Virus record (IMG/VR): IMGVR_UViG_3300037189_012170
Location: 1-20,951 of that record
Reading direction: 5' to 3' (one strand)
Origin: a virus
DNA: 20,951 bases
In this document: positions 2,869 to 19,621 of the stretch, one piece after another
Layout: every line of letters begins with the position of its first letter
Position numbering within the stretch: the first letter of the stretch is position 1
The notes under the pieces: model-generated
Told to the model about the DNA's origin: nothing
Seen by the model: the letters and a program-made list of their open reading frames with translations, nothing else
The model's database searches: none
Program-made: the position numbers and the translations under genes

Positions 2869-3573
2869 ATGGCAAAAAAAGCTCCTAGTAAAAATTATTT
2901 TACTCAAGATACTGAGGATGCTATTGTACTGTATAATTTAACTGAAGATACCGCGGTTAAAAGTCGGATCTATGAAGAGCGCATACATTATGCGTTCTTT
3001 AAGTTAACTCAAAATATTATACATACTTTTAAATTTTACCATACTGAAGTAGAGAATTTAGAGCATTTACAACATGAAATTATTGTATTCTTACTCTCTA
3101 AAATTCACCTATTTAACCCACAAAATGGAGCTAAAGCTTATTCTTATTTTGGTACTATTGTAAAACGATGGTGTATCTTATATAATGATAAAAATTACAA
3201 GAAAAAAATCCAAAAAGTACCTGTTACTGAATTAGAACAAGATGATAAACATTCTTATACTCTAGAACCATCTAACTCAGATGATAAACTTTCTTTGTTT
3301 ATGGATGGATGGGTTGAATTTGTTAGTTTTAATCTTTATGAGATTTTCCCTAAAGAGTATGATACTAAAATTGCAGATGCTGTTTTGGAACTTTTTAGGA
3401 AACGAGATCAAATAGATATTTTTAATAAAAAAGCTCTTTACATTTATATTCATGAAATGGTTCCGGATGCTAAGACTCCTAAAATTACTAAAATAGCAGG
3501 TATTCTTTATGATATATTTAAAAGAAATTATTTGTTTTATTTAGAACAAGGATATACAAATTTTAAACTTTAG
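2869..3573 (+). CDS. 55: Late-transcription RNA polymerase sigma factor, T4 gp55-like
   Basis: The N-terminal half matches the gp55 family of phage sigma factors, which direct host RNA polymerase to late promoters together with the sliding clamp and a co-activator. The visible signature is YFTQDTEDAIVLYN, then a helical region equivalent to sigma region 2 with NPQNGAKAYSYFGTIVKRW at its end, the usual location of -10 recognition. The C-terminal half is helical and less conserved. Length is 234 residues, against about 185 for T4 gp55. An in-frame ATG at 2836 would add 11 residues inside the upstream gene. I prefer the ATG at 2869, four bases after the upstream stop, giving MAKKAPSKNYF. In T4, gene 55 is not next to the baseplate genes; here it immediately precedes them. 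Confidence 0.82.
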   Translation: MAKKAPSKNYFTQDTEDAIVLYNLTEDTAVKSRIYEERIHYAFFKLTQNIIHTFKFYHTEVENLEHLQHEIIVFLLSKIHLFNPQNGAKAYSYFGTIVKRWCILYNDKNYKKKIQKVPVTELEQDDKHSYTLEPSNSDDKLSLFMDGWVEFVSFNLYEIFPKEYDTKIADAVLELFRKRDQIDIFNKKALYIYIHEMVPDAKTPKITKIAGILYDIFKRNYLFYLEQGYTNFKL

Positions 3574-3582
3574 TAATTTTCT

Positions 3583-3591
3583 ATATTTATA
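3583..3591 (+). promoter_or_regulatory. ATATTTATA motif: candidate late promoter 1
   Basis: ATATTTATA lies in the 33-base gap after the late sigma gene, with 15 bases between it and the ATG at 3607. The same nine bases occur in three other gaps before structural genes. It is the reverse complement of the T4 late element TATAAATA plus one T. If it is a -10 box on this strand, the leader would be only about 8 bases. Confidence 0.45.
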
Positions 3592-3606
3592 CCCAAAACT
3601 ACTTAT

Positions 3607-3945
3607 ATGAGTAATTTAGAATCAAATATTTGGGGTAAGAAAAAATTCTCTGATTTACTAAAAGAAATTTACGAAAATTCAAAGAAAAAAGAAATCCAAA
3701 TTAACGCTTTAATAGGCGAATTAAAACCATTAATTAATGATATTGGTGATGCTACTTTAATTGTTCCCTTAATTAAGGAATATATGGAGTTAGGTATTAA
3801 AAATGATGAGCAGTTAATCAAAATGGCTACCATTGCACAACGTGCTATTGCTTCTGGCAAATCAGAAGAAGAAGGATTTGGAATGACTGAAGATGAAAAA
3901 GCACAATTATTATCTGAAGTTAAAAAATTTAACCCTAAAGATTAA
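3607..3945 (+). CDS. Small helical protein opening the baseplate operon
   Basis: A 112-residue, mostly helical protein with no recognised family. Visible features are a basic N-terminal patch (WGKKKF, NSKKKE), hydrophobic helices around residues 32-60 (LIGELKPLINDIGD, LIVPLIKEYME) and an acidic C-terminal tail with EDEKAQLLSEV. There is no signal or membrane segment. It is the first gene after the candidate late promoter and overlaps the spike gene by one base (TAATG), so it is probably expressed with the baseplate. It could be a baseplate assembly factor or a small structural protein, but nothing in the sequence decides this. Confidence 0.6.
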   Translation: MSNLESNIWGKKKFSDLLKEIYENSKKKEIQINALIGELKPLINDIGDATLIVPLIKEYMELGIKNDEQLIKMATIAQRAIASGKSEEEGFGMTEDEKAQLLSEVKKFNPKD

Positions 3946-5234
3946 TGGCTCTTTATAAAACTGGCTTAGCTAATTCTACTAAGGGAACTACTCCCCCACC
4001 CCAACAATCTGGGACCCAGAATCAACTTAATGCATTAAAAAGCCAAGTTGTTGCTGCCAGGGTTATTGATATCATTTTGGATGAAAACCACCCTAAATTT
4101 AATGATGTTGGGCAATGGAATGGAATAGGGGCTATACTTTATGAATTTGTAAACCAATCATTTACAGGTGATAATTCTAATTTTGCTTTGCCTTATGATT
4201 CTCAAATAAAAACATACCCCCTAGTTAATGAATTAGTATTATTGTTTTCATTACCTAACAATCAAATAGGATCTAATACATCCAACACTTCATATTTTTA
4301 TCTTAAACCTTTAGGAGTTTGGAACCATCCACATCATGATGCTTATCCTAATACTTCAAGAAATTTAAATCCTTCACAAGCTCAAGATTATAAATCTAGT
4401 AATAATGGAACTATAAGACAAGTTACTGACGGCTCAACTGAAATTAATTTAAATAGTCCTGTTAATCCTTCACAAAATACCTTTATTGAAAAAACAGATA
4501 TCCATCCTTTAATGCCCTACATGGGAGATGTTTTAATAGAAGGGAGACATGGACAAAGTTTACGCTTTGGAAGCACAGCTAAATCCCAAAGTTCAATAAA
4601 AAATCAATGGTCAACTGCTGGAATGAATGGTGATCCTATTACTATTTTAAGAAATGGTCAACCAAACCAAGTAGATGATAAGGGTTGGATTCCAATTAAT
4701 GAAAGTATTAGAAACGACCTATCTTCCATCTATTTAACTTCAACTCAAAAACTAGAAGATTTTAAGGTAGCTAGTGAATTATATAATTCTTATACAACCC
4801 CTCCAACACCTCCATCACAATTTACTTCTCCACAAGTTGCTCTCAACTCAGATAGAATAGTAATAAATGCTAAAACGGATAGTGTTTTATTAAGCGCTCA
4901 AAAATCAATTGGGATGTCTACTAATGGGAGTGTAAATATAGATGCTACTTCCCATTATATAAGTTCAAATGATGTAAAATTAGGTTCTAAAAATGCTACC
5001 CAACCAGTTTTATTAGGAGATGATACTATTGAATTATTAAAACAGTTAACGGGTGCTATTAAAGATTTAGCTTCTATTTTACAAGTTCAAAGAGATTATC
5101 CTGGAGGAAATCTTGCAACTTCATATAATGCCATAGCAGGAAATGTATTAGAACAAATAAATAATCCTTCTAATGGAATACTAGCTCAATTAAATAATAA
5201 TAGTCTAAAGTCTAAAACAACAAAAGTACAATAA
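3945..5234 (+). CDS. 5: Baseplate hub/central spike protein, gp5-like, without lysozyme domain
   Basis: A 429-residue protein that would form the central spike at the tip of the contractile tail. An N-terminal OB-fold-like region (about 35-125) begins with VVAARVIDIILD. The hallmark GDVLIEGRHGQSLRFGST follows at 194-211. A hydrophobic beta-repeat region (about 300-350, NSDRIVINAKTDSVLLSA) probably forms the trimeric beta-helical needle, and helical residues run from about 356. Phage spikes of this type pierce the outer membrane. T4 gp5 carries a lysozyme domain between the OB-fold and the needle. Residues 210-300 here are too short and lack any lysozyme signature, so cell-wall digestion must reside elsewhere. 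The gene is coupled by TAATG overlaps at both ends. Family-level assignment is firm; the domain limits are approximate. Confidence 0.75.
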   Translation: MALYKTGLANSTKGTTPPPQQSGTQNQLNALKSQVVAARVIDIILDENHPKFNDVGQWNGIGAILYEFVNQSFTGDNSNFALPYDSQIKTYPLVNELVLLFSLPNNQIGSNTSNTSYFYLKPLGVWNHPHHDAYPNTSRNLNPSQAQDYKSSNNGTIRQVTDGSTEINLNSPVNPSQNTFIEKTDIHPLMPYMGDVLIEGRHGQSLRFGSTAKSQSSIKNQWSTAGMNGDPITILRNGQPNQVDDKGWIPINESIRNDLSSIYLTSTQKLEDFKVASELYNSYTTPPTPPSQFTSPQVALNSDRIVINAKTDSVLLSAQKSIGMSTNGSVNIDATSHYISSNDVKLGSKNATQPVLLGDDTIELLKQLTGAIKDLASILQVQRDYPGGNLATSYNAIAGNVLEQINNPSNGILAQLNNNSLKSKTTKVQ

Positions 5235-6547
5235 TGGCTATGGATTCACAAAATACAAGTTCAATTGATGTAGAAATAAATCTAGTAAATCTTTTATCCT
5301 TAGCTGGAATAGAACTCCCTCAAACCCCAACTTCAGGATCTACTCAAGAACTTCCTAAAAAAATAAAACTTGAAAAAATTACAGGAACTGTAGTTGATGC
5401 TATTACTAATGAACCACTCTCAGGAGTTGTAGTCACTAATCCACTTTTAAAAAGAGATACTACTAATAAAAAAGGTGAATTTACTATTAAACACCCAGCT
5501 ATTGCAGGTACTGGATTAGATCCTACTAAATTTCCATTAAATTTTAAATTAAAAAGATATTCTCCATTAACTGTAATTCCATATACTTCTGTAGGAGATA
5601 TTAAAAGTAATTTAGGAATAAACTCTTTAAAACCCGTAGAGTCAAACTTAAAAAAAGAAATTTCAGAATTTTTATCTTTTCCTGATCCTGTTACTGAAAC
5701 ATATGCAACTGCTAATGTTACTTTTGATTTTAGAGTTCAAAAGAAATTAAATACTAGTATAGATGATATAAAAGGTATAGTTATTCCTTTAGTATTAAGT
5801 TTAATAGCAGTATATGGTGTAAGTAAAGTTCAAGAGCTATTAGAAAAATCAAAATTAAATCCTCAAGCGGCATTTGAAGAAATAAAAGATATAATTACGT
5901 GTCCACCTAAAGATCAAATTGATAAATTAATAGCTACTAAAAATAAACTTGTTAATAAAATAAATAATACCTTAAATGTAATTAAAACTACAACAAATGC
6001 TTTAACTATTAGTGAAGGTATTATTTTAACTATAGACACAACATACCAAATCCTTAAAGTTCTCCCCACTCCATCAGCTATTGGAGGTGTAGGTATTCCT
6101 ATATCTGTAATTAATGGTATACAAGATGTTAAAACTTTTTTAAGTAATAATATAGGAAAATTTAAAGCAATTAATACTGCAACTTTAGCTATATTAACTC
6201 TATTAGAATTAGTTTTATCCCAAGTTTTATCACTTTTAACTTTATTAGATTTATTAACTCAATTTTGTTATCCTGGTGTTTCCCAAGATCAAATTTCAAC
6301 AGAATTAACAGCATTAACTCAACAACAATCTAATCAATTATCCCCTGTTGTTACAAATGTAAATGGATTTGAAATGGGTGTTGAAACTGAAGTAACAGAT
6401 AAGCCATTAAAACGTAGAAGAGCTATAGCTAGAAATAAAGGAGGTGTTGTAATGTTACAAGGAGAATGGTCTTTTAGCTCAATTGATCAGATATTAATTG
6501 ATGAACTTGTATTTTATATTCAACAAAATAATTTAAAAGCAGAATAA
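5234..6547 (+). CDS. Baseplate-cluster protein with carboxypeptidase-regulatory-like domain
   Basis: A 437-residue probable virion protein. Residues about 48-118 form a carboxypeptidase-regulatory-like (transthyretin-type) beta sandwich, recognised by ITGTVVDAITNEPLSGVVV and then TNKKGEFTI. The middle is helical with two very hydrophobic stretches: about 180-198 (IVIPLVLSLIAVYGV) and about 313-345, almost all Leu, Ile, Ala and Val. The C-terminus has a basic RRRAIA patch and the motif SFSSIDQILIDELVFYI. The location between the spike and gp25 suggests a baseplate hub or tail-tip component. The hydrophobic helices could be buried in a multimer, act in tape-measure-like packing, or insert into a membrane during infection. 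None of these can be chosen from sequence. It is coupled to the spike gene by a one-base overlap. Confidence 0.65.
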   Translation: MAMDSQNTSSIDVEINLVNLLSLAGIELPQTPTSGSTQELPKKIKLEKITGTVVDAITNEPLSGVVVTNPLLKRDTTNKKGEFTIKHPAIAGTGLDPTKFPLNFKLKRYSPLTVIPYTSVGDIKSNLGINSLKPVESNLKKEISEFLSFPDPVTETYATANVTFDFRVQKKLNTSIDDIKGIVIPLVLSLIAVYGVSKVQELLEKSKLNPQAAFEEIKDIITCPPKDQIDKLIATKNKLVNKINNTLNVIKTTTNALTISEGIILTIDTTYQILKVLPTPSAIGGVGIPISVINGIQDVKTFLSNNIGKFKAINTATLAILTLLELVLSQVLSLLTLLDLLTQFCYPGVSQDQISTELTALTQQQSNQLSPVVTNVNGFEMGVETEVTDKPLKRRRAIARNKGGVVMLQGEWSFSSIDQILIDELVFYIQQNNLKAE

Positions 6548-6551
6548 CCAA

Positions 6552-6560
6552 ATATTTATA
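6552..6560 (+). promoter_or_regulatory. ATATTTATA motif: candidate late promoter 2
   Basis: The motif lies in an 18-base gap, only five bases before the ATG at 6566. As a -10 element it would place the transcription start at or near the A of the ATG, giving a leaderless message. It may instead be an A/T-rich translation-initiation context. Confidence 0.35.
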
Positions 6561-6565
6561 ATTAT

Positions 6566-6895
6566 ATGAAAGCCAACGATTTTAAAAAAATTATTAAAGA
6601 AGCCGTAAGAGAAGCAATTCAAGAAGAATTGAAAGATATTTTATTGGAAGCAGTAAAATCACCAAAACAAATAATTAAAGAATCTTACACACCACCAACA
6701 TCTACACCTTCATACGCTCCACCATCTATTGATTTTAGATCAAAGTATGCTGAAGTTTTAGGTGAAACTGCTATGAGTTTTACTTCACAAGATGCGGTTC
6801 CATTTAGACCACAAGTAAGTGATCCTGTAAATGGTAATTTAGGAACAGGTGAAGTAGGAATGGATCAAATTATGAGTTTATTAAACACTAAATAA
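6566..6895 (+). CDS. Small protein with amphipathic N-terminal helix, baseplate cluster
   Basis: A 109-residue protein. The first 33 residues form a strongly amphipathic charged helix (KIIKEAVREAIQEELKDILL). A Pro/Ser/Thr-rich linker follows at about 42-55 and then a C-terminal part with EVLGETAMSFTSQDAVPF. N-terminal helices of the form K-x-x-x-x-K-x-x-I-K-E-x-V-R are frequent in small phage structural and assembly proteins, where they may bind a partner. I cannot assign this one to a named baseplate gene. It is coupled to gp25 by a one-base TAATG overlap and follows an ATATTTATA motif. A role in baseplate wedge or hub assembly is inferred from position only. Confidence 0.6.
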   Translation: MKANDFKKIIKEAVREAIQEELKDILLEAVKSPKQIIKESYTPPTSTPSYAPPSIDFRSKYAEVLGETAMSFTSQDAVPFRPQVSDPVNGNLGTGEVGMDQIMSLLNTK

Positions 6896-7299
6896 TGGCA
6901 TTTAATCCCCAACAAATAAATCCTTTAGATTTAAATCCTAATGTAGCTGTTGGGGTGAATTTACCATTTAATGGTCCTTCTGTTTTCACTTCAAATTATT
7001 TTACCTCTCAAGCCTTAAAAAATAATCTTATAAATTTCTTTTTAACCAACCCAGGAGAACTTCCTTTAAATCCAACATTTGGAGGAGGTTTAAGAGCATT
7101 TATTTTTGAACAAATATCCGAGGGGACATTAAATGGATTAGAAACCAATATAAGTTTTAGTTTAGAAAAATTTTTCCCAAATGTTATAATTAATGACTTA
7201 GTAATACTAAGAGATGATGATAATAACACAATAACAATTAACTTAAAATATTCTGTTGCTAATTCTAATATTAATGACAATTTAACAATACAACTATAA
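6895..7299 (+). CDS. 25: Baseplate wedge protein gp25 (GPW/gp25 family)
   Basis: A 134-residue protein, almost exactly the length of T4 gp25 (132). The family core is visible: SQALKNNLINFFLTNPGELPLNP, then FGGGLRAFIFEQ at about 62-73, then an amphipathic helix and a beta C-terminus (TITINLKYSVA). Gp25 forms the inner ring of the baseplate wedge and helps trigger sheath contraction by mimicking a sheath subunit. The gene lies directly before gp6, as expected for neighbours that bind each other in the wedge, and overlaps it by one base (TAATG). The start is fixed by the TAATGGC overlap with the upstream stop. Confidence 0.85.
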   Translation: MAFNPQQINPLDLNPNVAVGVNLPFNGPSVFTSNYFTSQALKNNLINFFLTNPGELPLNPTFGGGLRAFIFEQISEGTLNGLETNISFSLEKFFPNVIINDLVILRDDDNNTITINLKYSVANSNINDNLTIQL

Positions 7300-9143
7300 T
7301 GGCTAATCTAAATAGAGATATAAGATATATTAACCGTGATTTCTCTGAATTCAGACAACGATTAATAGAATACACTAGAACATATTTTCCAAATACTTAC
7401 ACAGATTTTTCTCCTGCTTCACCTGGTATGATGTTTATGGAACAGTCTGCATATGTTGGGGATGTTTTAAGTTTTTATTTAGATAATCAATTTCAAGAAA
7501 CATTTACTCAATATGCCCAACAAACAAATAATGTATTTGAATTGGCATATATGTTTGGGTATAAACCTAAAACAACAGGAGCTGCCCAAGTTACTGTAGA
7601 TTTTTATCAACAATTACCTTCTAAACTTTCAGGATCCGAATATATTCCTGATTACGATTATGCAATAACAGTTGGAGAAAATACAGTAATTTCCTCCCAA
7701 AATGGAACAGGATTTATTATCCAAGATAAAATTGATTTTTCAGTTTCAAGTTCAGAGGATCCAACTGAAGTTTCTATTTACCAAATTGCAGGTAATAACC
7801 CACAATATTTTTTACTTAAAAAGAGTAGAAATGCTGTTTCGGCTAATATAGCAACCCAACAATTCATTTTTACAGATCCACAACCTTTCAACACTATTAA
7901 TCTTCAAACCAATAATATAATTAAAATATTGGATATTACAGATTCTGAAGGAAATACTTGGTATGAAGTAGATCATTTGGGACAAGAAATGGTATTAGAC
8001 CCTGTAAGAAATACTAACATAAATGATCCAAATAAATCATTAGATGTTCCTTATCTTTTAAAATTAAAAAAAGTTCAAAGACGTTTTGCTACCCGTTTTA
8101 CCTCTTTATCTAATCTTCAAATTCAATTTGGAGCGGGTTCACCATATGATACTGATGAAGAAATTACCCCTAACCCTAACAATGTTGGGATTGGATTACC
8201 ATTTATTAAAGATAAATTAACTGCAGCATATTCTCCCGTAAACTTTTTATATACCGGAACTTACGGAATTGCCCCTTCAAACACCATTTTAACAGTAAGA
8301 TATTTAACTGGTGGAGGAGTAGGCACTAATATACCAGCTAATACTTTAACTTCTTTAAGTACTATTAATTGTAAATTTAATCTTACTAATTTAAACCCAA
8401 CAACAGCAAACTACATATTTACCTCACTTTCTTCAAATAATCCAGAAGCGGCTTCTGGAGGTAGAGGTGGAGATACATTAGAGGAAATTCGTCAAAATAC
8501 ATTAGCACTAGTTGCTTCCCAAAAACGTTCAGTTACAGCTGATGATTATTTAATTAGAGCTTTAAGTATGCCTACAGATTATGGTGCTATTACTAAAGCT
8601 TATATTGAACAACCTAAATTAACTGATAATCAAGTTTCAACAATTGAAACTCTTAATTTATATATTTTATCCCAAAATACAGGTGGTCAATTAGATTATG
8701 CTACTACTGTTTTAAAAGATAATCTTAGAACATATTTGTCTCAATATAGAATGATAGGTGATAATATCGAAATTAAAAACGCCTTTATTATCAATATTGG
8801 GGTTGATTTTGAAATTATAGTTACTCCTCAATTTAACAACAATGAAGTCCTTATAAACTGTATTACAGCTTTACAATCATATTTTGACATAAGTAAATGG
8901 CAACTTAATCAACCTATTATGATGAGAGATTTATATGTGTTGTTAGATAAAATTAAAGGAGTCCAAACTGTTAAAAGTGTTTCTATATCAAATAAAGCCG
9001 GAACAACTTCCGGATATTCCCAATATGCATATGATATAATAGGTGCAACTCAAAATCAAGTAATTTATCCATCATTAGACCCTAGTATTTTTGAAGTAAG
9101 ATATCCTAATTTAGATATTAAAGGTAAAGTAGTTCCTTTATAA
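7299..9143 (+). CDS. 6: Baseplate wedge protein gp6-like
   Basis: A 614-residue protein corresponding to T4 gp6 (660 residues), which forms the continuous inner ring joining the six wedges and clamps gp25 and gp7. The N-terminal family signature is visible: DFSEFRQRLIEYTRTYFP, then DFSPASPGMMFMEQSAYVGD and FYLDNQFQETF. A later conserved block reads GGRGGDTLEEIRQN, followed by QKRSVTADDYLIRAL at about 405-425, typical of the gp6/J-like fold. The C-terminal third has the alternating helix and strand pattern of the dimerisation domain (QPIMMRDLYVLLDKIKGV). It is coupled to gp25 at its start. It ends with a TAATG, but that ATG leads only to a four-codon ORF; the next gene starts at 9170. Confidence 0.88.
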   Translation: MANLNRDIRYINRDFSEFRQRLIEYTRTYFPNTYTDFSPASPGMMFMEQSAYVGDVLSFYLDNQFQETFTQYAQQTNNVFELAYMFGYKPKTTGAAQVTVDFYQQLPSKLSGSEYIPDYDYAITVGENTVISSQNGTGFIIQDKIDFSVSSSEDPTEVSIYQIAGNNPQYFLLKKSRNAVSANIATQQFIFTDPQPFNTINLQTNNIIKILDITDSEGNTWYEVDHLGQEMVLDPVRNTNINDPNKSLDVPYLLKLKKVQRRFATRFTSLSNLQIQFGAGSPYDTDEEITPNPNNVGIGLPFIKDKLTAAYSPVNFLYTGTYGIAPSNTILTVRYLTGGGVGTNIPANTLTSLSTINCKFNLTNLNPTTANYIFTSLSSNNPEAASGGRGGDTLEEIRQNTLALVASQKRSVTADDYLIRALSMPTDYGAITKAYIEQPKLTDNQVSTIETLNLYILSQNTGGQLDYATTVLKDNLRTYLSQYRMIGDNIEIKNAFIINIGVDFEIIVTPQFNNNEVLINCITALQSYFDISKWQLNQPIMMRDLYVLLDKIKGVQTVKSVSISNKAGTTSGYSQYAYDIIGATQNQVIYPSLDPSIFEVRYPNLDIKGKVVPL

Positions 9144-9147
9144 TGCC

Positions 9148-9156
9148 ATATTTATA
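9148..9156 (+). promoter_or_regulatory. ATATTTATA motif: candidate late promoter 3
   Basis: The motif fills part of the 26-base gap after gp6 and ends 13 bases before the ATG at 9170. It follows the same pattern as the motifs at 3583, 6552 and 16492 and would start a message with a leader of about six bases. Confidence 0.45.
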
Positions 9157-9169
9157 ATAAAATATATTA

Positions 9170-10288
9170 ATGGCTGTTTATAAAATATTCCCTACTCAAG
9201 ACGCTACATTATACTCTGCTTACCCAACAATGAATACTGGATTGGATGCTATCTTAGAAGCATCTAATAAAATTAATCTTGATGGAACACCTGATGTAGC
9301 TAGATATTTAGTTCAATTTGATAATCTTGAGATTCAAGATATTATTGCTAATAAAATTAGTGGAAGCTCATATGGTATATTCCTTAAAAATTTTATAGCA
9401 GAAGCTCAAGGTATTAGTCTTAATACTTCTTTAGAAATACGCCCAACTGCCCAATCCTGGAATAATGGAACTGGGTATACTTTAGATAACCCTATAGTTG
9501 AAGATGGTGTCTCATGGGCATACTCTGCCTATTCAGGATCTAATCCTTGGAGTATGGGAGGTACAACTGGAGGATTTAATTATACCGGATCATTCAATTC
9601 TAGTTTTTCAACTCAAGGCGGGGGAAATTGGTTTACAACTTCAAGTTTTCTTGTTACTGAATCTTTTGGGTTACGCAATACTAAAGATATTGAACTTAAC
9701 GTAACTAATACAGTTAAGGCTTGGTATAGTTCATCTATCCCAAATTACGGGTTTATATGTAAACTTTCAGGATCTTATGAATTTATAAATAATGAAAATG
9801 TTCAACCCGTATTTAAATACTATAGTGTTGACACAAACACAATTTATCCTCCATGTTTAGAATTTAGATGGATAGACTATACTACAGTAATAACCTCTTC
9901 TTCCCCAGTTGTTACCACAGTAAACCTAAAAATGTCTTTAGCTGAAAACCCAGGAGAATTTTTTCCTGAAAGTGTTAATAGATTTTACATTAATGTAAGT
10001 CCTTTATATCCTACAAGAACATATCAAACTGGTTCACTCTTTACAAATTTGAATTATTTACCAACTAGTTCATATTATGCAATAAAAGACTTGGCTACTA
10101 ACGAATTTGTTGTTAACTTCGATAACAGTTATACTCAAATTAGTTCTGATACTAATGGGAATTATTTTAATGTTTATATGAGCGGATTAGAACCAGAAAG
10201 ATATTATAAAATTTTAATTAAAACTATCATAAATGGTTCAACATTAATCTTTGATGATGATTACTACTTTAAAGTTATTAACGGATGA
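9170..10288 (+). CDS. Probable baseplate structural protein with DNRLRE-like domain
   Basis: A 372-residue, beta-rich virion protein. The N-terminal domain (about 4-215) resembles the DNRLRE/CBM96-type beta-sandwich found in cell-surface and phage proteins: PTQDATLYSAYPTMNTG, then VARYLVQFD, then SLEIRPTAQSWNNGTGYT and DGVSWAYS. The C-terminal 120 residues form a second beta region ending in YYKILIKTIINGS and DDYYFKV, typical of an Ig-like or attachment domain. Coming right after gp6, it occupies the place of gp7 or gp8 in T4, but I see no sequence similarity to either. A wedge-surface protein, perhaps touching fibres or glycans, is an inference. The gene overlaps the next by four bases (ATGA). 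Confidence 0.65.
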   Translation: MAVYKIFPTQDATLYSAYPTMNTGLDAILEASNKINLDGTPDVARYLVQFDNLEIQDIIANKISGSSYGIFLKNFIAEAQGISLNTSLEIRPTAQSWNNGTGYTLDNPIVEDGVSWAYSAYSGSNPWSMGGTTGGFNYTGSFNSSFSTQGGGNWFTTSSFLVTESFGLRNTKDIELNVTNTVKAWYSSSIPNYGFICKLSGSYEFINNENVQPVFKYYSVDTNTIYPPCLEFRWIDYTTVITSSSPVVTTVNLKMSLAENPGEFFPESVNRFYINVSPLYPTRTYQTGSLFTNLNYLPTSSYYAIKDLATNEFVVNFDNSYTQISSDTNGNYFNVYMSGLEPERYYKILIKTIINGSTLIFDDDYYFKVING

Positions 10289-10647
10289 GTGAAAATGTAA
10301 ATTTAAATAAACAGGTATACGATAAAAATCAATATACTAAAGTTATAGATACTTCCTTTAAGCAGTTAGGAGTTCAAACTATACAAGAACAATTAAATCA
10401 ACAACCTACAGTTGATGAATTTTTTGCTATGTATAATGATCTTTTTTATAATATACCTGAATTAGGAGCTACTAATTCTCATGAATACTTAATTAAAACT
10501 AGTAGTGAATATATTAATTATACTGCTAATCAAGAAATAATAGATGCTTTACAAGCTGAAATAGCTCAACTTAGGATAGAATTACTTGATTCACAAAAAC
10601 AAGTTATACAATTACAAACAGGAACAACATTAGCTAATCCACAATAA
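10285..10647 (+). CDS. Small coiled-coil structural protein
   Basis: A 120-residue protein of unknown family. The middle contains TVDEFFAMYNDLFYNIPELG and HEYLIKTSSEYI. Residues about 83-110 form a clear coiled coil (IIDALQAEIAQLRIELLDSQ), so it is probably oligomeric. It is coupled to genes on both sides: ATGA with the upstream beta protein and TAATG with the giant structural protein. Such tight coupling suggests a stoichiometric partner or assembly chaperone for one of them, but this is inferred from position. It has no cysteine and no membrane segment. Confidence 0.65.
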   Translation: MSENVNLNKQVYDKNQYTKVIDTSFKQLGVQTIQEQLNQQPTVDEFFAMYNDLFYNIPELGATNSHEYLIKTSSEYINYTANQEIIDALQAEIAQLRIELLDSQKQVIQLQTGTTLANPQ

Positions 10648-13600
10648 TGGCAGCAGAAATTACACAAATCGATCCTCAAGAATTTTCATCCCAAACATAT
10701 GGAGGTCAAGATACAGGTTTATTGACATCATTAGATGTTAACACTTCTTTATCCTCTAGTAGTTATATTGAATATTTTACATACGATAACAATAAAAACA
10801 TTCTTTCTTCTGATTATAGTTTTACCCAATATACGGTTCAAAATGATGGCCAATCAGCAGGTGAAGAAGGAAATGTATCTGAAATCATATTAGATCCTGA
10901 ACAAATTCTAATAGATAATGGATTTGATCAAGGAGAATATATTACATATTTTAACTTTTTTAATAAACAAATTGGTTCTGATCTTGAACAACTTTATATA
11001 GCTGAAATTTCATCTGATAGAACTGAAATTAGGTTAGATAGTACTGATTTAGATAATCTTAGTATTGTTGAACAAACAAGTAATTTCATAATTGAAAGAG
11101 AAAATAGTCCTTATTTTGTAGACTTTTACTTAAATCTTGGAGATAATCAACTTTTAATTGCAAATAATATTCAATTAGATAATCAAGATCCAAATAATCC
11201 AACTATATTAATTAAATTATATGAGGCATTACCTGAAGAATTTGATTTAAATTTTACATTATGGGTAGTAACAGTTGTAGAAGAACCTAGAGCATATAAA
11301 GTTACCTTTGAAGATCTCCCTATAATAATCACTGATACAACCTCAATTTCCGGTCCTAACTTTAATTTAGATTTAAAAGATCAAATTAATAATTCTACTA
11401 GTGAGGTCTCGTATTTTGATTTAATTACAACTTCTTTAACAAGTTCACAAAACCAATTAAATAGTTTACTTGAAGAAAAAGAAATTGATATTAATATAGA
11501 CTACACTAATTTTTCTGATTTTATTCATTTTAGTTCAGCTAGAACAAGATTAGAAAATTTTTATTATAAAGTTAGTTTAATTGAAGAATATTCATCATCC
11601 ATTGCTATATTAAATAATACTACTAACAATAACCCAAGTGCTAGTGTTGCAATTTATGAAAGTAAAATTAATAGTATTATAACTAATTTTGATGGTTTTG
11701 ATTACTATTTATATTATTCAAGTGGTTCTTGGGCTTGGCCTAAATCAACAACACAACCCCCATACAAACTATATCCTACAGGAAGTACACAAGTTTTAAA
11801 TTGGTTTGGAAGTGATAATCCATCAAATGCTTACTATGGAGGAATAATCCTTTCAGCATCGTTTTATGACGAAAATAATAAAGATTATCTTTACTATGTT
11901 ATCCCTGAATACCTAAGAGATGACGCAAACAATGACCAGTATCTACTATTTGTAGAAATGGTAGGTCAACATTACGACAACATTTGGATTTACTATAAAG
12001 ATGTTACCCAAAAATATAATGCCGATAACCGTTTAGAATATGGTATCTCAAAAGATATAGTAGCGGATGCAATTCGTGATTTTGGAGTTAAATTATATCA
12101 AAATAATTTTTCAACACAAGATTTATATACTGCGTTTTTAGGTTTAACACCTGATGGTGCTTTATTTCCATTCCCCAATATAACAGGTTCACTTCCTACT
12201 CCTAGTGGATATGAATACGTTAATACTTTAATATCGGCTTCAAGCGATTATTTACCGTTAGATGATGTAAATAAATCGCTGTATAAACGCATTTACCATA
12301 ATTTACCATACCTGCTTAAATCAAAAGGTACTTTACCTGGTTTACGCGCTCTTATCACTTCATATGGTATTCCTGATACTATTTTAAGGATAAATGAATA
12401 TGGAGGAAAAGATAAAGTAGATTATAACGATTGGGATTATTGGCAAAATGAATTTAATTATGCTTTTAAAACTAATGGTAATAATTTTATTTCGGCTTCA
12501 TGGGGAATAAATCCTAATTGGGGAAGTGTTGATGGAGTTCCTGAGTCATTAGCATTTAGATTTAAAACAAATGGTTTACCTTATTCTAATATTCCATACT
12601 CCCAAAGTTTAGTATCTTTATATCAAGACCCACTTAATGTTGGGTTTCAATTTACTTTAACTTATACTGGATCAGGATATACTAGTGGTTCTTATAGTGG
12701 TTCCATTCAAGACCCATACTACCAGTATGCTACCTTAACATTTATTCCAGATCCTATTAGTTACCCTAACCTTTCAGCAAGTATATATTTACCTTTCTTT
12801 GATGGAGGGTGGTGGTCAGCTATGGTAAATAGAAATGTAGGTAATTTTACCTTATATGCAGGAAATAAAATATATGAAGGTGGCGACAATGGAACTTTAT
12901 TAGGATTCTTCCAATCATCTTCAATATTTGCAGATGATAACGGTTGGACTCCATCTTATCCTATATATTTTGCTTCTAGTAGTCTTATTAATGGCAAGAC
13001 ATACAAACCATTTTCTGGCTCTTTACAAGAAATTAGATATTACACTATAGAATTAACTGAAAATACTTTTAAGGATTATATAATGAATCCTTATTCAATT
13101 GAAGGTAATACTATAAAGAATGGACCTGATATACTTGCTTTTAGAGCATCTTTAGGGGGTGAGTTATATACTGGGTCACGCTCAATTCACCCAAAAGTTA
13201 CAGGATCATGGGTTCCTACTAGTTCATTTGTTGGGAATAGTAATTTCTCCTTTAAGTCAACTCCTGTATTTGTTCCAAATACAGAATATTTCTTTTATGA
13301 CCAACCTATAGCAGGTATTAAAAATACGGTTAGTAACAAAATTCGTTTAGAAAATTCGGTTATACCTGCTGGAGATACACTTTCAACATATAGATCATTA
13401 GCTCAAAACACAGAAGCAAGTCAAAGTTATACGGCAAATGTTAACTATCTTGAAGTAGCATTTTCCCCTCAAAATGAAATAAATGAGGATATAATGGATC
13501 AACTTGGTTATTTTAATATTGGAGATTATATTGGTGACCCAAGATTACGTTCCTCCTCAGCTGAGTCATATCCTGCTTTAGATAAATTACGAAATGATTA

Positions 13601-16472
13601 TTTTAAAAAATATACTAAAAATTATGATTTAGTTGATTTTATTCGTTTAATAAAATTCTTTGATAACTCATTATTTAAAATGATTAAAGATTTTGTACCT
13701 GCTCGTACAAGTCTTGCTTCTGGGATCGTTATTAAACAACATTTACTTGAAAGAAATAAATATCCTCAACCACAAGTTAGTTGGGAAGACTTAGATATTT
13801 CTGGAACTTTAAAACCTACTTGGAATGATTTTGAACCGGGAACTGTAGAGAATTTTAGTGGTGGTACTGGTGGATCATTTGAACAATATAATTATGTAGG
13901 AAATGTATCTCAAAGTTGGTATGAAACCATTCAATCACCTTTAGGACTTGTAGTTACACTACATAATGACCAAGATGAATTTTACGATGGAGAACTTAGT
14001 GGTTCTGTTATAGTAGCTACAACCCAAAGCTTAAACCAACCTTACCCACTTGAAAATATTGCCTTTAATTATACTCCGGTATTATTCTTAAATACTAATT
14101 TAGGACAAGCAGTTCAATCAAGTTTTGCTTCTGATAGATTAGTTAATCCATTAACAGTTCCTGGAAATGGAGAGGTGATGCTTAGTGTTAGAAGAAAATT
14201 AGGTTCAAACAATATATTTGTACTTGGAGTAGATTACATTAAAATATCTAAAACCGATGCTAGTGGGAATAATTCAACAATTCCATTAGGACAAATAACA
14301 AATCTTTTAATTAAATACTCTAATTATTCTACTGCTACTAATTATCAAATAAACAATATTGTAGAATATTCAACGTATTATTTATATGATATTGAAGTTA
14401 ATTCACAATATTCAACAGTAGATAATTATATTAAAAATTATAAATTATCGGGATCCATAGTTAACCAACAAATTATTAGTAGTGGCCCCGGAAATGATTT
14501 TACTTTAAAATACACAGCTAGTATAGATACCCAAAACGTTTATACTCAATCATTAGGAACTATTTATTACCCACAAACTACAAATATTGGATTAATATTT
14601 ACAGCTAGTTTTACTGGAAAAACCAGTGCGATACCTAACATAATAACAATGTCTTTTGGGGGAACTTCTAAAACTTTTACTTTAACCTCAACACCATCAA
14701 CCCTTATCTTTACAGGATCAATATACCCATATCCTGGGGAAGGGTATATTTTTGGAGGAACAAATAATGGGGTTGCTGTTACTATGAGTAATTTTCAATT
14801 CTTAATTACTCAAAGTGTTGCTTCTATTGCAGCTGTTCAAGATTTAACAATTTTAGAACCTTATATTTCGGTCCCTAACTTTTATAACAGTGATCAAAAC
14901 GCTTTATTAAATAGTGTAGAAGATGAAAGAACTAGTTTAATTTATGAAGATGTAGATTATTCAACTGGTTTACTTATTCCAACAAATTTTGGTGCTATTA
15001 TAAGTGGTAGCGCTACAAAAGCAACAGTTCAAGATTCAAATTATAGCACTAAACGTCATATTATCCCTAGATATGAAGGTAGTAAAACTACTTCCCAATT
15101 CTTAAACACTTGGACTTCCGGAGATGTAGGTACATATGGTAAATTGCCTTCTGTTGAATCTAATAAAGTATATGTAGCATATTGTGATTCTATAGGTGGA
15201 TGGGCGCCTGAAAAAATGAATGCTTCCGCTGCGTTTGTCAAATTCTTTATAAGTGAAGATGGGGATATTATAACACCAAATACAGATATTACGGCATTAT
15301 ATGTTAACCAAGGTACTTTTGTTTCTGGAGAAAAAATTAAAATAGAATCTTTAGGAACTAGTACAAATACTTCAACTCAATATAAAACTGTATTTAGAGG
15401 TGGAACTAAGATTGAACCCATTCTATACAATCAAATTAAACATTACCAAAATCCACCAATGTCATTTACTGGGAGTATTGAGTTTACAGACGGTAATCCT
15501 ACTTCTACTACTACAGTAAATAATTACACTGCTACTCTTACCGACTCTGCAGGAGCATTTGGATCCACATCTTGGTCAGGAATATCAATGAATACAGTAG
15601 TAACAACAGGTAGTTCTCTCCCAGCATCTGCAATAGCAACAATTAATACTTATACTGTTACTAGTGGGGTAATATCTGAAGGACTAGATTTAATATTCCA
15701 AGTAAATCTTAACATATTCAACAATAATTTATCTACTTCTACAGCATATGCTAGAATCATTAGAAATAGATCAAGTGTACTTACCCCTGTAGGAGGAATA
15801 GGATATGTTAATGAAAGTGGATATATAGCTGGGGGAACAGTTAAACCTCTATCTTTTACTACAACCATACCTTTAGCGGATTTAGTAGTAGGAGACATAT
15901 TCCAAATCCAATTAATAACAGGAAATAGTAATGTAGGATATAATTCAACTAGTACTTGGACAATCTCAACAAATCCTCTACCTACATCACCAATAAATGT
16001 TACAGGAGCCTTTTATACAGTTAACACCCCAGGCCAAGAAGCATTTTTATATTCTACCAGTTCAGCTTTACTTCAATATTATAATTTGCAAAATACCCAC
16101 CAAAAAGATATTGATGGATCAGGATTTAACCCAATAACATTACCATTTACTGTTGAAGTTGGAGATGAATTTAGATTTGAAGGTGATGAATCTAAATCAT
16201 TTATGGTTACAAATGCTGTTTATTTCCCATATATACCAAATCTTCCAATTCTAGCAATAGTTTTAAATCGTCCAATTTCTGGATCAGGAATCAATGTAAA
16301 TGAATTTGTTTTAAGAAGATATGTTGATAGTGCTGGGTCATTTATATTTGATGGATCTGTTCCTTCTGGAGTAAATAGTCCGTATTTAATTAAACCTGAG
16401 TACATAAGTAAAAAATTAGATCAAAACATAGGAAAATATATTGAAGACCTTACACAGAAAGGTTTGATTTAA
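10647..16472 (+). CDS. Giant baseplate/tail structural protein (gp7 position) with LamG-like domain
   Basis: At 1941 residues this is by far the largest gene here. T4 gp7 has 1032. Regions in order: about 1-330 are beta-rich and acidic. About 425-600 form a conserved helical core with VEMVGQHYDNIWIYYKDVT and LPYLLKSKGTLPGLRALI. About 610-825 look like a LamG/concanavalin-type lectin fold, ending in FSGSLQEIRYYTIELTEN and an NPYSIEG turn. About 890-1035 form a second conserved core including LVDFIRLIKFFDNSLFKMIKDFVPA. The rest is Thr/Ser/Gly-rich beta sandwich up to the motif LIKPEYISKKLDQNIGKYIE. Position after gp6 and size suggest the outer wedge scaffold with built-in glycan-binding modules. 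A giant fibre-like protein is the alternative. No lytic motif is seen. Confidence 0.7.
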   Translation: MAAEITQIDPQEFSSQTYGGQDTGLLTSLDVNTSLSSSSYIEYFTYDNNKNILSSDYSFTQYTVQNDGQSAGEEGNVSEIILDPEQILIDNGFDQGEYITYFNFFNKQIGSDLEQLYIAEISSDRTEIRLDSTDLDNLSIVEQTSNFIIERENSPYFVDFYLNLGDNQLLIANNIQLDNQDPNNPTILIKLYEALPEEFDLNFTLWVVTVVEEPRAYKVTFEDLPIIITDTTSISGPNFNLDLKDQINNSTSEVSYFDLITTSLTSSQNQLNSLLEEKEIDINIDYTNFSDFIHFSSARTRLENFYYKVSLIEEYSSSIAILNNTTNNNPSASVAIYESKINSIITNFDGFDYYLYYSSGSWAWPKSTTQPPYKLYPTGSTQVLNWFGSDNPSNAYYGGIILSASFYDENNKDYLYYVIPEYLRDDANNDQYLLFVEMVGQHYDNIWIYYKDVTQKYNADNRLEYGISKDIVADAIRDFGVKLYQNNFSTQDLYTAFLGLTPDGALFPFPNITGSLPTPSGYEYVNTLISASSDYLPLDDVNKSLYKRIYHNLPYLLKSKGTLPGLRALITSYGIPDTILRINEYGGKDKVDYNDWDYWQNEFNYAFKTNGNNFISASWGINPNWGSVDGVPESLAFRFKTNGLPYSNIPYSQSLVSLYQDPLNVGFQFTLTYTGSGYTSGSYSGSIQDPYYQYATLTFIPDPISYPNLSASIYLPFFDGGWWSAMVNRNVGNFTLYAGNKIYEGGDNGTLLGFFQSSSIFADDNGWTPSYPIYFASSSLINGKTYKPFSGSLQEIRYYTIELTENTFKDYIMNPYSIEGNTIKNGPDILAFRASLGGELYTGSRSIHPKVTGSWVPTSSFVGNSNFSFKSTPVFVPNTEYFFYDQPIAGIKNTVSNKIRLENSVIPAGDTLSTYRSLAQNTEASQSYTANVNYLEVAFSPQNEINEDIMDQLGYFNIGDYIGDPRLRSSSAESYPALDKLRNDYFKKYTKNYDLVDFIRLIKFFDNSLFKMIKDFVPARTSLASGIVIKQHLLERNKYPQPQVSWEDLDISGTLKPTWNDFEPGTVENFSGGTGGSFEQYNYVGNVSQSWYETIQSPLGLVVTLHNDQDEFYDGELSGSVIVATTQSLNQPYPLENIAFNYTPVLFLNTNLGQAVQSSFASDRLVNPLTVPGNGEVMLSVRRKLGSNNIFVLGVDYIKISKTDASGNNSTIPLGQITNLLIKYSNYSTATNYQINNIVEYSTYYLYDIEVNSQYSTVDNYIKNYKLSGSIVNQQIISSGPGNDFTLKYTASIDTQNVYTQSLGTIYYPQTTNIGLIFTASFTGKTSAIPNIITMSFGGTSKTFTLTSTPSTLIFTGSIYPYPGEGYIFGGTNNGVAVTMSNFQFLITQSVASIAAVQDLTILEPYISVPNFYNSDQNALLNSVEDERTSLIYEDVDYSTGLLIPTNFGAIISGSATKATVQDSNYSTKRHIIPRYEGSKTTSQFLNTWTSGDVGTYGKLPSVESNKVYVAYCDSIGGWAPEKMNASAAFVKFFISEDGDIITPNTDITALYVNQGTFVSGEKIKIESLGTSTNTSTQYKTVFRGGTKIEPILYNQIKHYQNPPMSFTGSIEFTDGNPTSTTTVNNYTATLTDSAGAFGSTSWSGISMNTVVTTGSSLPASAIATINTYTVTSGVISEGLDLIFQVNLNIFNNNLSTSTAYARIIRNRSSVLTPVGGIGYVNESGYIAGGTVKPLSFTTTIPLADLVVGDIFQIQLITGNSNVGYNSTSTWTISTNPLPTSPINVTGAFYTVNTPGQEAFLYSTSSALLQYYNLQNTHQKDIDGSGFNPITLPFTVEVGDEFRFEGDESKSFMVTNAVYFPYIPNLPILAIVLNRPISGSGINVNEFVLRRYVDSAGSFIFDGSVPSGVNSPYLIKPEYISKKLDQNIGKYIEDLTQKGLI

Positions 16473-16491
16473 CAATATTTATTAGTATAAT

Positions 16492-16500
16492 ATATTTATA
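16492..16500 (+). promoter_or_regulatory. ATATTTATA motif: candidate late promoter 4
   Basis: In the 40-base gap after the giant gene, ATATTTATA ends 12 bases before the ATG at 16513. A second copy with one mismatch (ATATTTATT) lies at 16475-16483, so this gap has a near-duplicate pair. It precedes a group of three probable virion genes, consistent with a late transcript. Confidence 0.45.
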
Positions 16501-19162: not shown

Positions 19163-19621
19163 ATGTCAAATTGGTTATACAAAGATAAAAGAATAGAATC
19201 CTTAGAAGATTTTCCTGAAGGAACATTCGGATTTATTTACCTTACAATACATGAACCCTCAGGCAGAGCATATTTAGGAAAAAAATCTTTATTTCATAAT
19301 GTAAAGAAAAAACTTACTAAAAAAGAATTAGCTGAACAACCTGTAACTCGAGGACGTAAATCTTTAACTACAACTATTCAAAAAGAATCGGATTGGAAAA
19401 CATATTATGGTTCTGCTAAACCTATAGTTGATTTAATTAAACAAGGTAAACAAAAAGATTTTGTACGTAAAATTTTATGTTTTGCTCCAAATAAAAAACT
19501 TTTAACATATTACGAATGTAAGTATTTATTTAAACATGAGGTTTTAGAAAAACCGGATGAATGGATAAATGACAATATTCTTGGAAAATTTTACACAAAA
19601 GATTTTGCTTCCATAGATTAA
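19163..19621 (+). CDS. SegE-type GIY-YIG endonuclease
   Basis: A 152-residue protein that fits the SegE-like branch of GIY-YIG nucleases. The first strand GFIY is at 23-26, the second YLGKK at 37-41, an insert with SDWKTYYGS at 76-84, an Arg in DFVRKIL at 102, and the candidate catalytic Glu in YYECKYLF at 118. In T4, Seg proteins are free-standing homing endonucleases that spread into related phages, cutting near their own gene. Some relatives may have been adopted for phage functions. It lies between the structural block and the primase gene, a typical homing location. The start has no Shine-Dalgarno sequence; GATTTATAA just upstream resembles a degenerate late motif but includes the previous stop. 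Confidence 0.75.
   Translation: MSNWLYKDKRIESLEDFPEGTFGFIYLTIHEPSGRAYLGKKSLFHNVKKKLTKKELAEQPVTRGRKSLTTTIQKESDWKTYYGSAKPIVDLIKQGKQKDFVRKILCFAPNKKLLTYYECKYLFKHEVLEKPDEWINDNILGKFYTKDFASID

Follow-up and report, generated by a model that had tools for sequence, protein, structure and literature searches.

A conserved TATTTATA element before phage virion genes is best explained as a late promoter box of T4 type with an altered centre

What is the function of a short AT-rich string that recurs in front of the virion-gene blocks of a virus contig, just downstream of a gene for a sigma-like protein? We compared the arrangement with relatives of the phage and with phage T4. The most likely answer is that TATTTATA before each virion-gene block is a switch for late transcription and a variant of the T4 sequence TATAAATA.

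Copies of the motif in the window

The window, meaning the whole stretch of DNA analysed, is a virus contig of 20,951 bases with 30% G+C. When both of its strands were scanned, ATATTTATA was found exactly at 3583, 6552, 9148 and 16492, always on the + strand, with no further exact copy on either strand. The copies lie 15, 5, 13 and 12 nt from the ATG that follows, and none was found inside coding sequence of the window, confirming what an earlier note on this DNA had described. A copy with one mismatch, ATATTTATT, occupies 16475–16483. The total number of ATATTTATA in the window was unremarkable (4 compared to 2.37 expected, with at least 4 in 25 of 100 shuffles), whereas its placement was remarkable, since gaps held 4 copies against 0.17 expected when the gap sequences were shuffled, a number reached in 0 of 2000 trials. 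The reversed-pattern control of the motif search was uninformative, because ATATTTATA reads identically backwards. The features considered here are the following.

2869–3573, + strand: gp55-like late sigma factor (candidate); the ORF is open from 2836 with the conserved reading from 2869; weak profile matches and an alignment to gp55 region 2
3584–3591, + strand: putative late promoter box TATTTATA before 3607 (unit 3607, 3945, 5234); 15 nt to ATG; 148/150 distinct orthologous upstreams
6553–6560, + strand: putative late promoter box TATTTATA before 6566 (unit 6566, gp25 6895, gp6-like 7299); 5 nt to ATG, predicted leaderless; 90/90
9149–9156, + strand: putative late promoter box TATTTATA before 9170 (unit 9170, 10285, 10647); 13 nt to ATG; 52/103
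16476–16483, + strand: principal conserved putative late promoter box TATTTATT before 16513 (unit 16513, 17190, 18204); 29 nt to ATG; 22/22 orthologues
16493–16500, + strand: additional tandem copy TATTTATA upstream of 16513; 12 nt to ATG; 5/22 orthologues

Two other genes of the window deserve mention. The 1,941-residue protein of the baseplate/tail cluster (10647–16472) has no PHROG match and is matched just partially (~40% of its length) in Flavobacterium phage immuto, Mel-JY01 and LR756508. The family at 19163–19621 is named 'NAD synthetase' by PHROG and in the immuto record; Pfam gives a SegE-type GIY-YIG endonuclease domain, and the name is probably a mis-annotation.

Relatives and the genes that carry the box

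More than 500 relatives are present in IMG/VR, and about 240 relative loci were examined. The gp6-like baseplate protein as query gave 80 loci, and the sigma-like protein together with its immuto homologue gave 160, on contigs partly shared with the first set. The nearest cultured phage found was immuto, whose gp6-like protein is 45% identical; from this kinship and the lack of Shine-Dalgarno sites we infer that the window's phage infects Bacteroidetes. Across 81 loci (873 kb, window included) the 9-mer occurred 216 times in sense and 14 times in antisense orientation, and gaps, which make up 6% of the sequence, held 204 of the 216 sense copies. It also ranked among the commonest gap 9-mers of the large genomes in an unprompted count. 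TATTTATA in gaps was about nine- to fifteen-fold above gap shuffles (24 versus 2.5, 23 versus 2.7, 20 versus 1.3 and 26 versus 3.0), and T4-sense TATAAATA showed no comparable sense enrichment in gaps, being mildly raised in genomes G001 (13 versus 4.4 expected) and G005 (7 versus 2.0). The earlier note had held that its proposal would fall if the motif were not enriched before late genes genome-wide; with the enrichment seen in the genomes of relatives, it was not refuted.

The core [A/C]TATTTAT precedes the genes that open the blocks, being found in 148/150 (3607), 90/90 (6566), 52/103 (9170) and 18/18 (16513) distinct orthologous upstreams. At eight internal starts of the structural blocks it was found in 0/468 orthologous upstreams (3945, 0/31; 5234, 0/4; 6895, 0/148; 7299, 0/138; 10285, 0/78; 10647, 0/43; 17190, 0/14; 18204, 0/12). 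Directly behind the sigma gene, the gap contained TATTTAT in 157/161 relatives while its remaining sequence varied freely. Immuto has no box at the counterpart of 9170, where its genes 159 and 160 are just 1 nt apart. Upstream of 16513, all 22 orthologues have a box 28–31 nt before the ATG, corresponding to the distal copy at 16475, and a counterpart of the exact copy at 16492 appears in 5 of the 22 as an occasional tandem. Of the exact and the one-mismatch copy that the earlier note had listed here, the conserved one is thus 16475, not 16492.

Gene function was then compared with box content. According to the annotated products of immuto, [AC]TATTTAT lies in 18/28 gaps that lead into genes for structure, packaging or lysis, compared to 10/71 others. 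When genes of three IMG/VR genomes were classed by their immuto homologues, late genes had the box more often than other genes in G001 (13/19 versus 1/24), G003 (8/14 versus 1/12) and G005 (13/21 versus 0/8), with p from 2e-6 to 0.014. Counting against a promoter, some late gaps have no box, for example that before the major capsid gene, and ten non-late gaps of immuto do have one. Collectively, the enrichment in gaps and in the sense direction, the block-first placement and the late-gene bias support the idea of a late promoter element adjoining the upstream gp55-like sigma gene. A variant late box, TATGTATAA, was seen in G001 upstream of 155180 and 158119 (reverse-complement coordinates), two tail-spike-like genes, suggesting that the box centre may tolerate G.

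The same core was found in a more divergent phage. In Mel-JY01, which is recorded as a Microcystis phage and has a sigma about 33% identical, the top gap 8-mer is this core (21 sense, 6 antisense), and the box stands 12–46 nt, often 30–36 nt, before late genes such as those for terminase and tail-tube, usually with a Shine-Dalgarno-like site between box and start. Such sites were found at 62/150 starts in Mel-JY01, 19/28 late starts in T4, 11/232 starts in immuto and 7/232 in G001. Thus the box is farther off where a leader is needed and nearer where it is not, a pattern that points to a role in transcription and not in translation. An A/U-rich, Kozak-like enhancer of translation initiation, acting in mRNA where the host makes no use of Shine-Dalgarno sites, would fit the lack of those sites in these phages and the frequent location of the motif 3–20 nt from the AUG, and A-rich upstream bases do tune translation in Flavobacterium (PMC6847099). 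However, the signal described there is an A at -3 with no fixed heptamer, a Kozak-like signal would be general at starts and fixed in position, and our motif is missing from all 468 internal upstreams of the same highly expressed class, ranges from 3 to over 30 nt from the start, and lies ~30–36 nt upstream in Mel-JY01 alongside Shine-Dalgarno sites. We consider this reading very improbable.

A phage recorded from Microcystis, PP395634.1 (loci L284–L286 and L110), has the sigma, the baseplate cluster and the late box in common with the group. It also has a gene for a homologue of ribosomal protein S21 (RpsU, 22183–22410), a curious finding because bS21 is involved in how Bacteroidia use Shine-Dalgarno sites. 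A related sigma (~40%) is present in the 484-kb phage LR756508 with no box beside its gene, which counts against the promoter explanation; the LR756508 sigma as query retrieved just two further contigs.

Sense, shape and spacing of the site

The minus strand reads TATAAATA at each site of the window, and the earlier note had raised an 'inverted sense' use of the T4 box through its reverse complement. When both are written in the gene direction, TATTTATA differs from TATAAATA in having TT for AA at its centre; the two are reverse complements because both begin with TAT and end with ATA. A same-sense box with an altered centre therefore needs no new geometry. The T4 control, read likewise, gave sense-oriented TATAAATA ahead of late genes. 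Since the difference in the gene direction amounts to two central positions and TATAAATA is not comparably sense-enriched, the inverted use was not supported, and the other option offered at the time, an altered box used in + orientation, is favoured. The minus-strand reading would equally allow a genuine T4-sense late promoter on the opposite strand that gives rise to antisense transcripts, but one strand holds nearly all the genes, and both the A-rich stretch expected to melt and the constrained spacing to a start lie on the sense side. The antisense reading was rejected on these grounds, and an opposite-strand promoter has next to no chance of being correct.

Alignment of the late sites of four genomes showed that TATTTAT is common to them, preceded by A or C and mostly followed by A, with an A-rich stretch ~11–13 nt from the start of the box and, in the logos, nothing strongly conserved near -35. 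Late sites thus consist of a single 8-bp TATA-like box without a conserved -35 element, placed before virion and packaging genes, as T4-type late promoters are; the late consensus is TATTTATA rather than the TATAAATA of that type.

The Bacteroidetes primary-sigma promoter, the likely type of the same hosts, has -33 TTTG and -7 TAHHTTTG elements (PMC6847099). Sites in the immuto early region differ from the late ones and are a fair match to it, reading AGTTG, N20 and then TATATTTAGGTAT (also written TATATTTAG); this pattern occurs in 22/71 non-late gaps compared to 1/28 late gaps. Might the box then serve a host sigma, either a variant of sigma-A or an ECF sigma, with the phage sigma playing no role? 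The -7 element is likewise AT-rich and T-rich, and host-like promoters do exist at the immuto early sites. But the late sites have no -33 conservation and end in TATA rather than TTTG, the early class is distinct and avoids late genes, and the distribution of the box tracks the phage clade, extending to a phage whose recorded host is a cyanobacterium. A host-sigma element is accordingly very unlikely. In G001 and G003 (loci L086–L100) a further class was observed at 30 and 21 sites, AAAGGAATA, ~8 nt, TTAAAA and then TTTCGTATATTgA, before early or unknown genes. It is unlike the host TTG/TAnnTTTG class and is perhaps an activator-dependent early or middle promoter.

The distance from box to ATG is mostly 3–22 nt in phages of the clade lacking Shine-Dalgarno sites. 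Among 484 distinct sites in 81 gene families its lower edge was 3 nt, with 167 sites at 3–5 nt, none at 2 and six at 0–1. A dip at 6–9 nt in the histogram was weak at the gene-family level, so no claim is built on it. The spacing at the 6566 start is 3–7 nt in nearly all relatives. Start sites were predicted by T4 geometry (box at -13 to -6) or Flavobacterium geometry (-12 to -5), and with a spacing of 4–5 nt either geometry puts the start at the A of the AUG, so a leaderless mRNA is predicted for the 6566 (gp25/gp6) unit. Leaderless mRNAs make up just 5.5% in F. psychrophilum (PMC9723704). The earlier suggestion that late leaders are very short and Shine-Dalgarno sites absent agrees with these spacings, from which the leader lengths are derived.

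An RNA-level element of polycistronic late mRNA, namely a UAUUUAU processing site or the site of an RNA-binding protein, would also be confined to the sense strand and to unit borders. The lower distance edge of 3 nt, the A-rich stretch where a promoter melts, and the match to T4 late promoters in length and layout all better fit a promoter, and we regard an RNA element as most improbable.

The candidate sigma factor and comparison with known systems

At default cut-off the sigma ORF matched no PHROG or Pfam family. Weak matches were obtained to Sigma70_r2 in 16/25 family members (best 0.0032) and to the late-sigma PHROG in 11/25 (best 0.066), and in whole genomes of relatives the sigma locus was the sole match to phrog_234 / PF04542. 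The sigma profile aligned with residues 38–109 (region 2) of T4 gp55 with an hhalign E of 0.0012 and a score of 29.4, compared to at most 20.0 for 30 permuted controls, a weak but specific relation of the kind expected in the gp55 family. Structure models were poor at first (pLDDT 72) and improved with a deeper alignment (82); Foldseek lists for the AlphaFold2 models were dominated by sigma factors, with no match passing E 0.001, and a PDB sequence search gave a single unrelated weak match. Homology is weak in that no lone family or structure match lies beyond threshold. Taken together, the profile alignment, the Sigma70_r2 and PHROG matches and the Foldseek list support, rather than prove, that the ORF at 2836/2869–3573 encodes a distant gp55-like sigma factor, as the earlier note had proposed for 2869. 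Upstream of sigma gene orthologues the box was found in 0/128 cases, as expected because the factor is made before late time. Residues 140–234, outside the gp55 alignment, form a conserved C-terminal helical part (helices 163–178, 187–197 and 203–227), possibly a second DNA- or polymerase-binding domain. Two homologues (L011:5551–6273 and L035:3800–4531) have a ~58-residue insertion within region 2, before the AKAYSYF block.

With a probability of about 0.83, TATTTATA is the -10 box of gp55-type late promoters, read in the + direction, in this phage and a large clade around immuto. It would be the single recognition element of these promoters, to which the gp55-type sigma encoded just upstream would direct host RNA polymerase late in infection; transcription would start ~5–6 nt after the box, and the mRNAs would begin at the AUG or up to ~20 nt before it. 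It is possible, though rather doubtful, that a T4-related clade has re-specified its gp55-like sigma on TATTTATA, perhaps without a gp45-type clamp, with transcription partly leaderless at the AUG. Literature searches turned up no description of TATTTATA as a late promoter of phages; subscription papers fell mostly outside the search, and novelty is not proven. The box lets late genes be mapped by eye in hundreds of uncultured phage genomes, and its association names a sigma candidate for late transcription. Comparing TATAAATA with TATTTATA provides a natural test case for box recognition by a minimal sigma, and leaderless or near-leaderless virion mRNAs are predicted where the host makes no use of Shine-Dalgarno sites.

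In the T4 late promoter an 8-bp box precedes the start by one turn, a -35 element is lacking and the downstream sequence is AT-rich (PMC2988020). The system described here resembles T4 and gp55 in its 8-bp AT box, missing -35 element, AT-rich downstream sequence, position before late virion genes and phage-encoded region-2 sigma. It differs in the TT centre in place of AA and in the distance of 3–22 nt from the ATG in the clade without Shine-Dalgarno sites (about 24–28 in T4). The sigma is larger than T4 gp55 and very diverged, and a gp45 clamp was not recognised, although the clamp models PF09116 and PF02916 matched T4 alone and were silent too in Mel-JY01, a phage with an annotated clamp loader. 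A late promoter variant is known from Aeromonas phage Aeh1, in which a/gC at -13/-12 replaces TA (PMC2988020). In both cases a T4-type late box has drifted in sequence, at its 5' end in Aeh1 and at its centre here.
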